From Dehalococcoidia bacterium (GTDB lineage Bacteria > Chloroflexota > Dehalococcoidia > Lucifugimonadales > JAGWBF01), in the NCBI GenBank assembly GCA_021295955.1, contig JAGWBJ010000006.1, positions 19,016 to 83,015 of the forward strand: a stretch of DNA of 64,000 bases, written 5' to 3'. The translations under genes and the position numbers were made by a program. The notes under the pieces are model-generated. The model saw only the letters and a program-made list of their open reading frames with translations, did not search any database and was not told where the DNA came from. This document shows, piece after piece, positions 44,972-52,125 of this stretch. Each line of letters opens with the position of its first letter. Position 1 is the first letter of the stretch.

Positions 44972-44979
44972 CCTACAGG
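44965..44979. terminator. Perfect inverted repeat spanning two convergent stop codons
   Basis: CCTGTAG-C-CTACAGG is a perfect palindrome made of the last codons of the aminotransferase and of the PEPCK-like gene. The stop codons (TAG on each strand) form its centre. The hairpin loop would be too tight for a normal terminator, so a role is doubtful. Confidence 0.3.
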
Positions 44980-47255
44980 ACCAGCCCGACCTTGTTCAGC
45001 AGGTCGTCGCTCTCCCCCGATAGGTGAAGCCCGCTGTCCCGGTACTTGGCGGCCAGGGCCGAAAGGTCCGAGTTCCGGGGGCGCGTGCCCCTGCCCAGAT
45101 GGTCCGCCAGCTCCGGCAGGCTGTTGTAGGCCTGGTCCACGTTCCAGTAGAAAGACAGCAGCCAGGCCAGCTCCCGCTCGTTGTCGGGGTTCGGTATGTC
45201 CCTCAGGTCGTACAGGTCGTTGGTCACCCTGGTGTAACGCAGGATTCCCGCCTTGTCTGCGGCGTCCCGCCCGTAGTACCGTCTCCGGCTCAGCTCGGCG
45301 ATGCGTCGGGAGTACTCCTGGTTTCCGTAGATGTTCCAGGGCAGCCACTCCTGGGAGAGGTCCACCGCGGTGTTGCCGTTGGCGTCCACGATGGCCACGG
45401 CCACGTCGGAGCCCAGCACCGGGTCGTGCTCGAACTTCACGGCCTCCCGCAGCAGGGCCTCCTGGAGCATGAGGGTGAGCTCCCTGGGGATCTTCCTGTA
45501 CCCGGCCCCGCTGGCCTCGTCGTTGGTGTCGGCGCCCACACCGCCGGTATTGAAGGCGTAGTAGTGCTGGGGCAGGCCCCCCGCCTCCATCGCCCTGAGG
45601 ATGTGGAACATCAGGTTCGCGTTGTCGTCCTCCAGCCCGATGATGAAGGGGTCCGAGAAGTACTCCACGTAGGGCCTGCCGATGGCGCCGATGGCGGCCC
45701 CCATCTGCACCGCCTCGCCGTACATCAGGATGCGTATGTACTGCTGCAGGGTGACCCGCCTCAACGGCGGGATCACGGTGTTCTGGCGCATCACCGCCTG
45801 CCAGAAGACCCGGTCGGTGTGCTCCATGGGCACGTGTACGGACTCCTCCAGCTCCCCCCCGGTGATGGAGCGCATCAGGTGCTGGGAGCCCTTCCGCTCC
45901 AGCAGCCTGAGCCTGGACAGGACCATCCGCATGTTCCTGACCGGGTTCTCCCCGTACTTGGGCGTGCCCGTGTCCGGGTCCACTGGTACGTTCTCCAGCA
46001 TCTCATCCGTATTGGGTGCCTCGGGACTGCCCCTGAGAGTGTCGTAGGTAATGGGGTCGTCCTCCCGGGTCAGGCCGAAGGGCACCGCGTACAGGCTGTT
46101 CTCGGTGCCGTCGATGGAGTAGGGCACGGTGACCGTCTTGCCGTCGTGGACGCTCTCGGCGGGAGGCTGCAGCCGCTGGAGGAGGACGATGTCGTCGTTC
46201 ATCGGGTAGACCCCCTCCGCGGGGTCCTCCGGCAGGCCGAGGGTCCGGGCGAGCTGGCTGTTCGCCAGCTCGATCATGATGGTCAGGGTGCTCTTACCGT
46301 GGAGGGACGGCCCGACGGTCACCAGGGCCGTGTTGGCCATCTTCCCCTGTAGAGTCTTGGTCCTGGCCATGCTGAGGGCCGCCTGCACCGCCAGACCCTC
46401 GGACTGCTTCACCAGGAACATGGCGATGGAGAGGGGGCCCATCTTATGCTCGCCCACGTAGTCGAACCCCAGGTGGAGGGACAGCCCCCTGGTCGGCGCC
46501 TTGAAGACGAGCTGGGTGAGCCCGGCCTCCCTGACCCGCTCCTTGAGGGCCTCGTCCAGGCCCAGGTCCTCCAGCCACCGGGGGATGGACACCTCCACGA
46601 TGTCCGGGGGCGAGGTCCACTGCTCCCTGGGGAGGTCGAAGGTGAGCTGACGCCACATCCGGGGGAGCTGCATGTACCGGCCGCCGAAGAGGATCTGCCT
46701 GGCGTGGAAGGAGCGACCCGGGGCGTCGCCGATCTGCCGGTCCGACTGGATTACCGTCTCCCCCGAGTCCAGGTACTCCCTCAGGCGCCTGTTGATGTGG
46801 GCCAGGACCTCGGTGAACAGCTCCTGGCTCTCGGCGCTGAACGCCAGGGCGTCGCGGTTCCTGGCAAAGCCGTCGATGAAATACTGGGTCAGATCGGGCC
46901 GCCGTACCACCCCGAGCTGGCTGAAGAAGGCCAGACCGCCGTTGTCGAGACGGACCACGGCCTCGGGCCAAGCCCGCGCCGCCGCCCTTCCGGCGGCGTT
47001 GGCCTCGGCTGCCGCCTTGTCCAGCTCCTCCGCCTCCCGGCGGACCCTGTCCTGCTCCGCCTGGGGCATGTCCTGGAGGACGGGCATCTTGGACAGTATC
47101 CACTCGTCGGGCGGGTTGAAGAGGTGGGCTTCGGGACGGTGGCCCTCTCTGGCCAGCGCCACCAGCCGGTCCAGCTCACGCTCGAATTCCCGGTTTATGG
47201 GAGGCCCTTCGAGGAGCGAGGGCTTCTCCCCGCCGTTGTCACTCTGGTCTGGCAA
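44973..47255 (-). CDS. PEP-carboxykinase-like P-loop protein
   Basis: 760 residues from TTG 47255; a weak GGGGGTC precedes it. The central part holds TVGPSLHGKSTLTIM, a P-loop (GxxxxGKS), then YPMNDDIVLLQ in the place of the second metal motif, and IDGTENSLYAVPFGLTREDDPITYD, which recall the ATP-type PEP carboxykinase/HprK group. The order P-loop, DD motif, GTEN.FYAVP agrees with PEPCK, but overall length (PEPCK is about 530) and the long N-terminal region are unusual. No substrate-binding Arg/Lys set can be confirmed. Treated as a divergent PEPCK-like enzyme. Confidence 0.5.
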   Translation of the reverse strand: MPDQSDNGGEKPSLLEGPPINREFERELDRLVALAREGHRPEAHLFNPPDEWILSKMPVLQDMPQAEQDRVRREAEELDKAAAEANAAGRAAARAWPEAVVRLDNGGLAFFSQLGVVRRPDLTQYFIDGFARNRDALAFSAESQELFTEVLAHINRRLREYLDSGETVIQSDRQIGDAPGRSFHARQILFGGRYMQLPRMWRQLTFDLPREQWTSPPDIVEVSIPRWLEDLGLDEALKERVREAGLTQLVFKAPTRGLSLHLGFDYVGEHKMGPLSIAMFLVKQSEGLAVQAALSMARTKTLQGKMANTALVTVGPSLHGKSTLTIMIELANSQLARTLGLPEDPAEGVYPMNDDIVLLQRLQPPAESVHDGKTVTVPYSIDGTENSLYAVPFGLTREDDPITYDTLRGSPEAPNTDEMLENVPVDPDTGTPKYGENPVRNMRMVLSRLRLLERKGSQHLMRSITGGELEESVHVPMEHTDRVFWQAVMRQNTVIPPLRRVTLQQYIRILMYGEAVQMGAAIGAIGRPYVEYFSDPFIIGLEDDNANLMFHILRAMEAGGLPQHYYAFNTGGVGADTNDEASGAGYRKIPRELTLMLQEALLREAVKFEHDPVLGSDVAVAIVDANGNTAVDLSQEWLPWNIYGNQEYSRRIAELSRRRYYGRDAADKAGILRYTRVTNDLYDLRDIPNPDNERELAWLLSFYWNVDQAYNSLPELADHLGRGTRPRNSDLSALAAKYRDSGLHLSGESDDLLNKVGLVL

Positions 47256-47373: not shown

Positions 47374-48858
47374 CTAGACCCCCTTCATCTCCAGCGTGCC
47401 GACCACTCCCGTCTCCAGGTCCACCGTCCGGATGGCATGGTTGTTGGTGTCCGCGACGAACACCCTGCCCGCGGCGACGCTCACCCCCGACGGCTCGTGG
47501 AGCGCGGCCTGGGAGGCCTCGCCGTCCCGGTGGCCCGGCTCGCCGGTGCCCGCGAAGGTGATTACGCTGCGGGTGTTGGGGAACAGCCGCTTGACCTTGT
47601 TGTTGTATGTGTCGGCCACGTACAGGATGCCGTCATGGTGGTCTATGCCCTGGGGGTGCTGAAGGCGCACGTCGTCGCCGGCGCCGTCCACGTCGCCGAA
47701 TACGAAGAGGCCCTCGCCCACGATGGTCTCGACCCGGCCTCCGGGACTCAGGTCCGCGGACCTGATGGCGCTGGCCTCGCTGTCGGCGAAGTACAGCTTA
47801 TGGCCGTCGGCGGTGATGCCGCTGGGCTGGTCCAGGGAGGCGCTGAGCAGGGCCCCGTCCACCGGGGCCTCGCGCCCGTTGCCCGCGTAGGGCCCGATCG
47901 TTCTGCGGCCCAGGTCCAGCGACCATATCTGGTGTATTCCAGCCATGGCGATGAACAGCACCCCCTCGTGGAGCCACAGGTCCCATGGGGAGCTCAGGTC
48001 CGACGCCCGGGGGTCGCCGCCCTGCCGGTATGCTCGGGCCTGGCGCCCCGTCCCGGCGATGGTGTCCACCCGCCTGGCCGCCAGGTCCACCCTGCGGACC
48101 GCGTGGTTCTCCGTATCGGCGACGTACAGCGTGTCGCCGTCCAGGGCCAATCCCTGCGGGTGGTCGAACCGGGCCTCGGAGAAGGCCCCGTCGGCAAGGC
48201 CCGGTTCTCCCTGGCCGATGACCTCCTGGACATCCCCCTCCAACGTAGCCACGATGATCCGGTTGTGGTTGGAGTCGGAGATAACCAGCCGGCCCGAGGC
48301 CTCGTCGGCCAGCACCTTGCCCGGGAAGGACAACGGCGAGCCCGGCTCCTGCTCCACGGCGTGGCTCAGGGGGGAGCGGTCGAGGACTCCCAGGCCGTCG
48401 AACTCCTGCACCATCTCCTGGATAATCGGGTCGAAGTCCTCGAAGGTAATCTCGCCCTCGTGCTTGCCGATCACCTTGCCCAGGGGGTCCAGGAACATGA
48501 GGGTGGGCCAGGCCCGGCACCCGTACTGGCTCCACACCTGGAACTCGCTGTCGTTGACCACCGGGTGCTCCAGCTCGTAGCGCATCACGGCCTTGCGCAG
48601 GTTCTCCGTCTCCTTCTCGGAGGTGAACTTGGCCGAGTGTACGCCGACCACGGCCAGCTCGCCCCTGTATTTGCGCTCCAGTTTCCGCAACTGCGGAAAT
48701 ACGTGCATGCAGTTGACTCAACAGTAGGTCCAGAAGTCCAGGATGACGATCTTGCCCCGCAGGTCCTGCAGGGAGAGGGGCCTGTCGGTGTTGAGCCAGT
48801 CCAGCCCCGGTGGAAAGTCGGGTGCGGACGTGTTGCCCACGAAGGACTTCTTCGCCAT
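47374..48858 (-). CDS. Candidate selenoprotein: thioredoxin-like/NHL-repeat fusion with UGA in the redox motif
   Basis: The ORF track splits this gene in two (69-residue and 444-residue ORFs) at TGA 48720-48718. Reading TGA as an amino acid gives 494 residues from ATG 48858 (AAAGGGG site). The redox motif is [18 protein letters not shown]; homologous thioredoxin/NHL proteins such as NHLRC2 have CCINC, so UGA replaces the N-terminal Cys of the CxxC pair (U47-x-x-C50). The thioredoxin fold continues ([25 protein letters not shown]), then about six NHL blades ([20 protein letters not shown]). No signal peptide. A hairpin TTTCCGC-AGTT-GCGGAAA follows the UGA. Selenocysteine insertion is inferred; a nonsense mutation is the alternative. 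Confidence 0.85.
48682..48699 (-). promoter_or_regulatory. Candidate bacterial SECIS element, thioredoxin/NHL gene
   Basis: Minus-strand TTTCCGC-AGTT-GCGGAAA is a perfect 7-bp hairpin with the tetraloop AGTT (G at the second place). The loop starts 25 bases after the UGA, inside the 16-37 base range for bacterial SECIS elements. It lies within the coding frame, as required in bacteria. Confidence 0.65.
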
Positions 48859-49041
48859 GTGGAACCCCTTTCCGCAAGCAGCCGCGCTCGCTGACCATAT
48901 TGTGCACCTTGTGCTGCCTCCAGGCAAGCGCGTGGCGAGGCGCCGTGCCCGTCCCCCTACTCTCGACCTCAGCGGTCACTTGACACCGCCACCCAAACGG
49001 CGATAATGGCGGTGAACCTCCTCTGCAAGCGGCTTTCCTAC

Positions 49042-49057
49042 GCCGATCCGAATCGGC
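49042..49057. promoter_or_regulatory. Palindrome upstream of the DNA methyltransferase
   Basis: GCCGAT-CCGA-ATCGGC is a 16-base inverted repeat 33 bases before the methyltransferase ATG. It may be an operator controlling the restriction-modification operon. Confidence 0.35.
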
Positions 49058-49090
49058 CCGCTGCAACCCGATAGGCGAGGATGATGTAGC

Positions 49091-50254
49091 ATGGTTGGGC
49101 TACAGGCCCGCCCGACGGCGATTGACCTGTTTGCGGGCGCAGGCGGTCTGTCCACTGGCTTTCAGCAAGCTGGGTTTGATGTAGTTGCTGCCAACGACTC
49201 TGACCCATACGCCGCAGCCACCTACCGGCTTAATCACCCCTCCACCCTCTTCGTCGGCGGCTCCATCGAATCGATAACCGAGGCGGAATTCTTGGGCGGT
49301 ACTGGCTTACATCGGGGCGAGTTGGACGTTCTTGTGGGAGGACCGCCATGCCAGGCTTTCAGCGTCTATAATCATCGGCGCGGGATGCATGATGAGCGGT
49401 CCGGACTCTTTCGAGAATACCTCCGTATGGTCCACGGCCTACTGCCTCGAATGGTCGTTATAGAGAACGTCACCGGCATCACGAGTATTGATGGAGGCCG
49501 CGCGGTCCATGATATCAAGGATAGCCTGAGGAACCTCGGGTATCACGTGGAGTCGGCGGTCTTAAAAGCAGAGGAATATGGAGTGCCGCAAGAGCGTCGT
49601 CGTATTTTTTTTGTGGGTTCCCGATCATATCTCCCGATTCGATGGCCAACGCCAACTTACGCTGCATGCGAAAATATTTTCACTATAGGACACAATCTCA
49701 AGCCCCTGGTGACAGTGGACGAGGCCATCGGCGACCTGCCCACGCTCAACAACAGCGAGGGGGCGGAGAAGATGGACTACACAGCAGCGCCGGTATCGGA
49801 CTACCAACGCCAGTCCAGGAGTGGTTCCGCATGGGTTTTCAACCATGTCGCACCGCAACTCGCGCCCATTAATCTGGAACGGATGAAACACATCCCACCG
49901 GGTGGCAGTTGGCGGGATATCCCTTATCAACTGCTCCCCGCTGGTATGAAACTCGCCAACCGGAGCGACCACACCAAACGGTATGGGCGCTTGCATCCCG
50001 ACGGGCAAGCATGCACCATCATGACTAGGTGCGACGTCCACTGGGGCGCGTATATCCATCCTTACCAAGACAGGGCTATTACCGTGCGGGAGGCGGCCCG
50101 CTTCCAGTCTTTCCCCGACAAGTTCCAGTTCTTGGGGAGCCGTGGCGAGCAATACAAACAGGTTGGCAACGCAGTGCCACCACTCCTGGCGGCGGCTGTG
50201 GCGAACGACGTAGCATTCATGTTAGCGGAGCAGGCGGTTGAAAGCCGCGCCTGA
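49091..50254 (+). CDS. DNA (cytosine-5) methyltransferase
   Basis: 387 residues. Motif I AIDLFAGAGGLSTGFQQAGF, motif IV VGGPPCQAFS with the catalytic Cys, motif VI VVIENVTGI, motif VIII VPQERRRIFFVGSR, and motif X YKQVGNAVPPLLAAAVA are all present. The target-recognition region lies between VIII and IX. GAGGATGATGTAGC precedes the ATG. It overlaps the next gene, a NotI-like nuclease, by 17 bases, so the pair is a type II restriction-modification system. Codons and base composition are more AT-rich than the flanks, consistent with transfer. Confidence 0.95.
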   Translation: MVGLQARPTAIDLFAGAGGLSTGFQQAGFDVVAANDSDPYAAATYRLNHPSTLFVGGSIESITEAEFLGGTGLHRGELDVLVGGPPCQAFSVYNHRRGMHDERSGLFREYLRMVHGLLPRMVVIENVTGITSIDGGRAVHDIKDSLRNLGYHVESAVLKAEEYGVPQERRRIFFVGSRSYLPIRWPTPTYAACENIFTIGHNLKPLVTVDEAIGDLPTLNNSEGAEKMDYTAAPVSDYQRQSRSGSAWVFNHVAPQLAPINLERMKHIPPGGSWRDIPYQLLPAGMKLANRSDHTKRYGRLHPDGQACTIMTRCDVHWGAYIHPYQDRAITVREAARFQSFPDKFQFLGSRGEQYKQVGNAVPPLLAAAVANDVAFMLAEQAVESRA

Positions 50255-51053
50255 GAGCATCATCGGAGAAGTCTTGGGCGAACCTGCGGCGCGCCAGCGG
50301 AGTCCAGCCACTGCGGGATACCTCTGCCCGTTCATCAACAGCGAATGTACCAAACGCGGACATCGTCGGAAGGGACCTTATCCGGTTTGCTCGGTATGGC
50401 ACTCAGTTAAGTCACCTCGTTTGATGGCGACCTGCCCCCAGCGGTTCTATCAGGTTGACGTCGTAGCAGACGTGGTGGCGCACTGCTGGCCTGGACCACC
50501 TCCGAAGAATCCACGCTTTGCCCCGGAAGTCTCTATGGATAAGTTTGGGACGGTGGACCTCGTAGTAGCTGACTTGGACGATGAAGCTAGGCAGATCAAA
50601 GAGTTTGTCAGTGTTGAACTTCAGGCCGTTGATCTCGGTGGTACCGTACAACCGGCGTATTCCGCCTTGTTGAACCACGAACTGATTGTAGAAACGACCT
50701 ACGGTGTGAATTGGGCAAATGTGCGGAAGCGATACATGGACCAGTTAGTCGCGAAGAGCTTTTATCACAACCGCTGGGGGACCCGCATAGTGGCCGTGAT
50801 GCAGACGCCCCTATATGACTACTTGCAGAGGCACATAAAATTTGACGAGTTGGCAACCGGCCCGGGGACCGTTGTGGACGTGTTCTTCCTGCTTTACGAC
50901 TTTGTGGAAGGGACGGGGCCGGATGAGACCCATACGCTTGTTTTCGACCGCGTGGTTGGAACTAGCCACAGCAGCTTGATGACGCACACGCTATACCAGA
51001 ATCCACCGACCAAAAAGGTATTTGCCGCGCGGATCCTTGAACGCCTACAATAG
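50238..51053 (+). CDS. NotI-like type II restriction endonuclease
   Basis: 271 residues from TTG 50238, overlapping the methyltransferase. The N-terminus has YLCPFINSECTKRGHRRKGP and YPVCSVW, with cysteines at about 30, 37, 51 and 66; NotI is known to bind iron through such a Cys4 site. The nuclease core then shows VSMDKFGTVDLVVAD and FVSVELQAVD, matching the D...ExQ variant of the PD-(D/E)xK site used by NotI. NotI cuts GCGGCCGC; specificity here is not proven. The window contains GCGGCCGC sites (for example near 60235 and 62567), so host DNA would need protection by the adjacent methyltransferase. Confidence 0.8.
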   Translation: MKAAPESIIGEVLGEPAARQRSPATAGYLCPFINSECTKRGHRRKGPYPVCSVWHSVKSPRLMATCPQRFYQVDVVADVVAHCWPGPPPKNPRFAPEVSMDKFGTVDLVVADLDDEARQIKEFVSVELQAVDLGGTVQPAYSALLNHELIVETTYGVNWANVRKRYMDQLVAKSFYHNRWGTRIVAVMQTPLYDYLQRHIKFDELATGPGTVVDVFFLLYDFVEGTGPDETHTLVFDRVVGTSHSSLMTHTLYQNPPTKKVFAARILERLQ

Positions 51054-51077
51054 GCTGCGGGGTACCAATCGCGAAGC

Positions 51078-51592
51078 TTAAAGCGCCTTGGCGGTATGAG
51101 CAAGCGATCGGTCGCCGGATTCTGGTTTCACCAACCTTCTGAGCCCACTTACTCTATTGCCAACCTCGTCCGCTACTATCTCTGGCTTCACATGCGACCA
51201 AAACCGTTGTCGACCTTCCGGTCCCTTTCGACGTTTCCTGTCAACTTCGAACTCCAATAGGCGACGTTCGAACGTGGAATGTGTCCGTGCTCGGGACAAC
51301 TATGCCAAAAGCAACCATCGATAAACACCGCTAACCGCAAACGCGGGAACGCGACATCTATCGTGCTTCGAGCCCCGGCGAATTCGATGGCAAACGATTT
51401 CCGGAAGCGCAGGCCTCGGCGGTGAAGAAGGCGCCTCGCCTCAACCTCAGGTTTGGTGTCCCTAGACTTGTTGCTGCGCATTGAACGTGTGACGGCTTGA
51501 CTTCTCGGGTTTGGGTACGGCACTAGTCCAGACTTGGTTCGAATAGTATGCGCATGATTCGTTGTCATGGTGGGTGCGTCAACAATAGTCAC
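51078..51592 (-). pseudogene. vsr: Vsr-like mismatch endonuclease, frameshifted with internal deletion
   Basis: Vsr nicks T:G mismatches that arise from deamination of 5-methylcytosine, and usually accompanies an m5C methyltransferase. The first frame holds the N-terminal and active-site part: RSMRSNKSRDTKPEVEARRL and IDVAFPRLRLAVFIDGCFWHSCPEH, up to NVERDRKVDN and TGA 51190-51188. The C-terminal part, RFWSHVKPEIVADEV, continues in another frame. The segment in between that normally reads about R...L...GWxVLR is missing, so there is both a deletion of roughly 10-13 codons and a frameshift. The start is GTG 51592 or ATG 51568. Confidence 0.75.
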
Positions 51593-52125
51593 ACATCGAG
51601 AACAGGCCTCCTCGACTAGTCCTGTCCGATTGTACCAGAATCTTTCAACTCCCGCGGAAGTTGGGTGTCACCCCTAGGTTCCTGCCTGCGCTAATGACAC
51701 CTCTCTCTTGACAGGCCCAACCCGCGTTCCTCAGACTAATATCATATTTGCGCCACGCCAACGGCCAGGCCCCCCCTCGACGGCCGTTTCCAACGAGGCG
51801 TTGGAGGCTTTCGCACCCGTGGCCGATTCGTCCCAACTGAGGGACGATTCCTTCCCGGCTCGCCCGGCCTCCCCAAGGAGGCCCCCCGCCAACCCGGCCA
51901 CTACGTCGGAATGGGAGAAAACGAGAGAGAATGAGAGTACAATCGAAAAGTACGGGAATGACTTTTCCCCGCCCAATCCCATGTTGTGCGGCCCCTTTCA
52001 AGACCAGGTATGGTATACCCAAAAACATGAACAGAGTGTATAATGGATTCTAATATTCCAACCAGATTTCCAGATTTTCTGTTCATCGCCGGGCGCAATT
52101 GTCCTAGGGTAGTACGGGGGGGTAG
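51593..52125. other. Gene-free AT-richer interval between Vsr remnant and gyrB
   Basis: No frame here resembles a protein. It probably marks the right edge of the transferred restriction-modification segment. It holds two promoter-like sequences pointing to gyrB: TACAAT near 51936 and TATAAT at 52039. No DnaA-box cluster (TTATCCACA-type) was found in it. Confidence 0.5.
52039..52044 (+). promoter_or_regulatory. -10 element of gyrB
   Basis: GAGTGTATAATGGATT provides TATAAT 81 bases before ATG 52126. No consensus -35 box is seen 17 bases upstream. Confidence 0.55.

Follow-up and report, generated by a model that had tools for sequence, protein, structure and literature searches.

The window analyzed here, a 64,000-nucleotide stretch of a Dehalococcoidia bacterium genome (assembly GCA_021295955.1, contig JAGWBJ010000006.1, positions 19,016 to 83,015), contains a block of foreign composition (49042..51600) situated between an NHL/thioredoxin-like gene on its left and gyrB on its right. 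Within this block, a C5-cytosine DNA methyltransferase gene (49091..50254, plus strand, 387 aa) overlaps the gene for a NotI-family restriction endonuclease (50238..51053, plus strand, 271 aa), and the pair faces a Vsr-like mismatch endonuclease gene that is broken near its 3' end (51188..51592, minus strand).

Genes of the block

The methyltransferase open reading frame (ORF), the modification gene of the pair, matches Pfam DNA_methylase at 246.6 bits and PADLOC MTase_II at 435 bits. The motifs DLFAGAGGLS, GGPPCQ, ENV, QERRR, and GNAVPP are all present and in the correct order, and by these marks the gene looks intact; its product is 57 to 60% identical to methyltransferases that accompany NotI-family nucleases on plasmids of Sphingobium and Sedimenticola. 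An earlier sequence-only reading of this stretch had proposed an m5C methyltransferase overlapping a NotI-like gene within 49042-51592, and the Pfam matches and the overlap agree with that description, as do the coordinates, except that the methyltransferase starts at 49091 and not at 49042.

The nuclease gene opens with a TTG codon 17 bp inside the methyltransferase gene, giving the adjacent pair of a Type II restriction-modification (R-M) arrangement, and this overlap, with the methyltransferase first, suggests translational coupling. The product scores 39.4 bits against Pfam NotI (PF12183), for which the curated cutoff is 22. Used as a single sequence, it finds no match in the PDB; a profile composed of the window nuclease and five plasmid relatives retrieves NotI (PDB accession number 3bvq) with an E value of 1e-7, spanning NotI residues 15 to 266. 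This alignment, on whose printed form the residue numbers were counted, pairs D107, E127, and Q129 of the nuclease with the catalytic residues D160, E182, and Q184 of NotI. The similarity extends beyond the Cys motif, and the failure to align there, which the sequence-only reading had named as grounds for refutation, did not occur. Across two alignments with plasmid and viral relatives, residues C30, C37, C51, C66, D107, E127, and Q129 do not vary, and the four cysteines correspond to a putative N-terminal Cys4 metal site of the NotI type, with C37 lying a few residues off its NotI counterpart in the profile alignment. In NotI, Q replaces K in the catalytic motif and an Fe-Cys4 site is present (PMC4081073). 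These alignments and the profile match bear out the Cys4 and D...ExQ residues that the sequence-only reading had singled out as typical of NotI.

The structural alignment to NotI was run on a predicted structure, an AlphaFold2 model built from a nine-row alignment, which is of modest confidence overall (pLDDT, 70; pTM, 0.72) and of low confidence in the Cys region. In a Foldseek search of 350,542 PDB chains, NotI chains are the sole significant matches (3c25 and 3bvq at the top; E values of 2e-7 to 6e-6), and the next match has an E value of 0.19. Because the superposition is loose (TM-score of 0.4 to 0.5, rmsd of 8.6 to 8.9, and identity of 14 to 16%), the model supports a shared NotI fold but not the detailed geometry.

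The Vsr ORF matches NCBIfam TIGR00632 at 94.6 bits over model positions 11 to 103 of 119, beyond which the frame is broken. A complete Vsr domain is not present in frame: the end of the domain lies out of frame, with the expected C-terminal tail, RFWSHVKPEIVADEV, in a different frame at about 51135-51210. When the ORF and this tail are joined by X residues, the match reaches position 118 of 119 and the score rises from 94.6 to 96.5 bits; full-length relatives have about 10 extra residues at the break point. The ORF, which is convergent to the methyltransferase-nuclease pair, is a remnant, as had been claimed for the sequence following the nuclease gene, unless the assembly is wrong there, and the broken gene points to partial decay (or misassembly) of the locus.

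This decay could be the first sign that the whole locus is a relic, with a nuclease that has lost its activity and a methyltransferase left behind as an orphan. Besides the broken Vsr gene, the nuclease C terminus is 19 to 40 residues shorter than those of most close relatives, and the nuclease gene of a relative in a Desulfarculus genome is also frame-broken. The window's nuclease frame is open, however, and keeps every conserved position (all 25 to 27 positions that are invariant among the aligned relatives), so that we consider a relic unlikely and an R-M pair with both genes retained the better description.

Relatives on mobile elements and in Chloroflexota

The nearest relatives that we found lie outside the Chloroflexota. 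The methyltransferase-nuclease pair also occurs on Sphingobium plasmids and on viral contigs, with nucleases 41 to 44% identical to that of the window. Two IMG/VR contigs, L053 and L054, carry the pair (nucleases 43 to 44% and 41 to 43% identical, respectively), whereas a collection of phage genomes from GenBank yielded no NotI-family match. On L053 (IMGVR_UViG_3300047329_000027), the pair sits beside phage-type genes, including an endolysin-like ORF, and is probably carried by a phage or prophage; the same contig has a second, orphan-like cytosine methyltransferase.

Among most relatives, one outlier pair apart, the methyltransferases are 47 to 59% and the nucleases 23 to 44% identical to those of the window. 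On a Sedimenticola plasmid (L050:37-2056), a methyltransferase 59% identical to the window's is adjacent to a NotI-family nuclease that is 24% identical, and this gap, read from the sequences, suggests either an exchange of nuclease partners or fast divergence.

Genes of the NotI family are present in 32 of 400 sampled Chloroflexota genomes and in 23 of 393 sampled genomes of the host's class. Given that the family is this common in the phylum, the taxonomic surprise voiced in the sequence-only reading, to which a marine-type Chloroflexota source seemed new, falls away, though the subtype in the window is unusual there. A profile of this subtype gives the window protein 433 bits and every other protein in the 400 Chloroflexota genomes 137 bits or less, and the subtype was found in no other genome of that sample.

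Target specificity

Membership in the NotI family does not fix specificity, and the proposal that the nuclease is a rare 8-bp cutter is not supported; the family includes at least one 6-bp cutter, EagI, which recognizes CGGCCG. For palindromes of 4, 6, and 8 bp, we set the observed counts against Markov expectation, using 200 kb of sequence each from the window's genome and from two same-order relatives. These counts show no clear depletion specific to the window's genome relative to the other two. The observed/expected ratio of CGGCCG, for example, is 0.78 in the window's genome versus 0.71 and 0.47 in the relatives. With no clear palindrome depletion of the genome's own, these counts name no target, and a recent arrival would have left no depletion anyway. 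The most depleted 6-bp palindrome in the 200 kb that include the window is CAGCTG (14 seen, 104 expected), which is less depleted in the two same-order relatives (0.34 and 0.58 of expectation).

One narrower version of the R-M reading makes the enzyme a true NotI isoschizomer that recognizes GCGGCCGC. Its Pfam family and catalytic motif are the same as those of NotI, but the protein is about 110 residues shorter and is distant from NotI in the structural alignment, and the existence of EagI in the family also speaks against it. In 200 kb of the host genome, GCGGCCGC is at expectation (20 sites seen, 20.4 expected), a frequency that does not discriminate, since modification protects the host. 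Taken together, we regard GCGGCCGC as a very improbable target.

Returning to the R-M pair in general, the variable region of the methyltransferase (SDHTKRYGR...TKCDxHWGA) is common to most of the clade, even where the partner nucleases are very different, and the methyltransferases may therefore have the same target, in whole or in part. The clade may thus pair a single methyltransferase specificity with NotI-family nucleases that were swapped or diverge fast. That the target of the nuclease is one not known for any NotI-family enzyme strikes us as rather doubtful.

Composition, probable insertion site, and neighboring genes

GC content is 56 to 57% across 49 to 52 kb, compared with 59 to 71% (mostly 63 to 70%) elsewhere in the window. 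The same shift appears at third codon positions, where GC is 64, 63, and 58% in the methyltransferase, nuclease, and Vsr genes, respectively, versus 92 to 95% in the genes that flank them most closely; the value for obg is 85%. Both profiles agree with the foreign, more AT-rich composition that the sequence-only reading had noticed.

The block lies inside one 83-kb contig, with genes of host composition on both flanks, and the flanking gyrB is 73 to 79% identical to those of same-order and same-family relatives. In a relative (G019), a 760-aa gene (at 44973-47255 in the window) and gyrB are divergent neighbors separated by about 570 bp, which is the adjacency expected if the block was inserted between them. 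This relative is too divergent for defining the borders of an insertion; in a same-family genome (G001), where an empty site was sought, the gyrB neighborhood is not syntenic, and the borders of the block show neither direct repeats on the flanks nor a tRNA or an integrase. The contig continuity, the host-like flanks, the affinities of gyrB, and the gene adjacency in G019 make it exceedingly improbable that the block is a mis-binned or contaminant stretch foreign to the genome, as might be argued from its composition and from an assembly estimated to be 7% contaminated and 88% complete.

The NHL/thioredoxin-like gene to the left of the block (47374-48927, minus strand) encodes an NHLRC2-like protein that is probably a selenoprotein and, as such, is a more unusual feature of the stretch than the R-M pair. 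Its in-frame TGA (48718-48720), in the context ...FWTYC-TGA-VNCMH..., takes exactly the position of the second Cys in the CC(I/V)NC motif of homologues (PMC6107167), and a hairpin, TTTCCGC-AGTT-GCGGAAA (48682-48699), begins 18 nt after the TGA. Both the TGA and the hairpin are kept in homologues that are 62, 59, and 58% identical, with a compensatory T-A to C-G change. Among the matches listed, about a dozen members of the class have one TGA inside the match, and the others have none. The genome has a tRNA-Sec-like gene (71 bits) and selB (364 bits). The stability of the TGA/hairpin region is not unusual when compared with shuffled sequences (z = -0.06).

Proposed origin and function

Homology, motif conservation, gene order, composition, and relatives on mobile elements all point to a horizontally acquired Type II R-M pair, and we consider this the likely identity of the locus, with a plasmid or phage as the probable source. 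The NotI-like R-M island of the sequence-only reading therefore stands with respect to family, gene order, and foreign composition. As judged from sequence, the methyltransferase would add a C5-methyl group to a cytosine of a site that is short and probably palindromic, and so protect the host DNA, and the nuclease, predicted to combine a metal-Cys4 N-terminal module with a PD-D/ExQ catalytic core and, by analogy, to act as a homodimer, would cut the same site when unmodified, as in incoming phage or plasmid DNA. Vsr would formerly have repaired T:G mismatches arising from m5C deamination, its gene having since decayed.

The locus adds one NotI-family R-M pair to a widespread and well-known kind and documents the transfer of such a pair to the chromosome of a Chloroflexota bacterium, with a plasmid or phage as the probable carrier. 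Should the specificity be new, the enzyme would have value as a reagent, but nothing here shows that it is.

Comparison with known systems

The window nuclease shares with NotI (PF12183; 3bvq and 3c25) the four-Cys N-terminal region, the D-x(n)-E-x-Q motif, a later G-x-N, a K-R region, and the predicted fold, but it has 271 residues to the 383 of NotI and, in structural alignment, the low identity given above. The other NotI-family genes of Chloroflexota, found in 6 to 8% of the sampled genomes, belong to the same Pfam family but to other branches, often scoring over 200 bits against Pfam NotI and no more than 137 bits against the subtype of the window.

The Sphingobium plasmids pSY2 and 6pYBL2-6 have the same order of an m5C methyltransferase followed by an overlapping NotI-family gene (57% and 42 to 43% identical to the window's, respectively); they differ in having a CopG-type regulator gene upstream, in having no Vsr, and in a nuclease about 40 residues longer. 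The locus of a Desulfarculus sp. metagenome-assembled genome (L044) comprises an m5C methyltransferase (53% identical), a NotI-family gene (38% identical), and Vsr in the same order as in the window, but there Vsr is on the same strand and is 35% identical to that of the window, and it is the nuclease gene that is broken, with a frameshift just after VVAHCW (L044:5989-6832), while the methyltransferase and Vsr frames are open.
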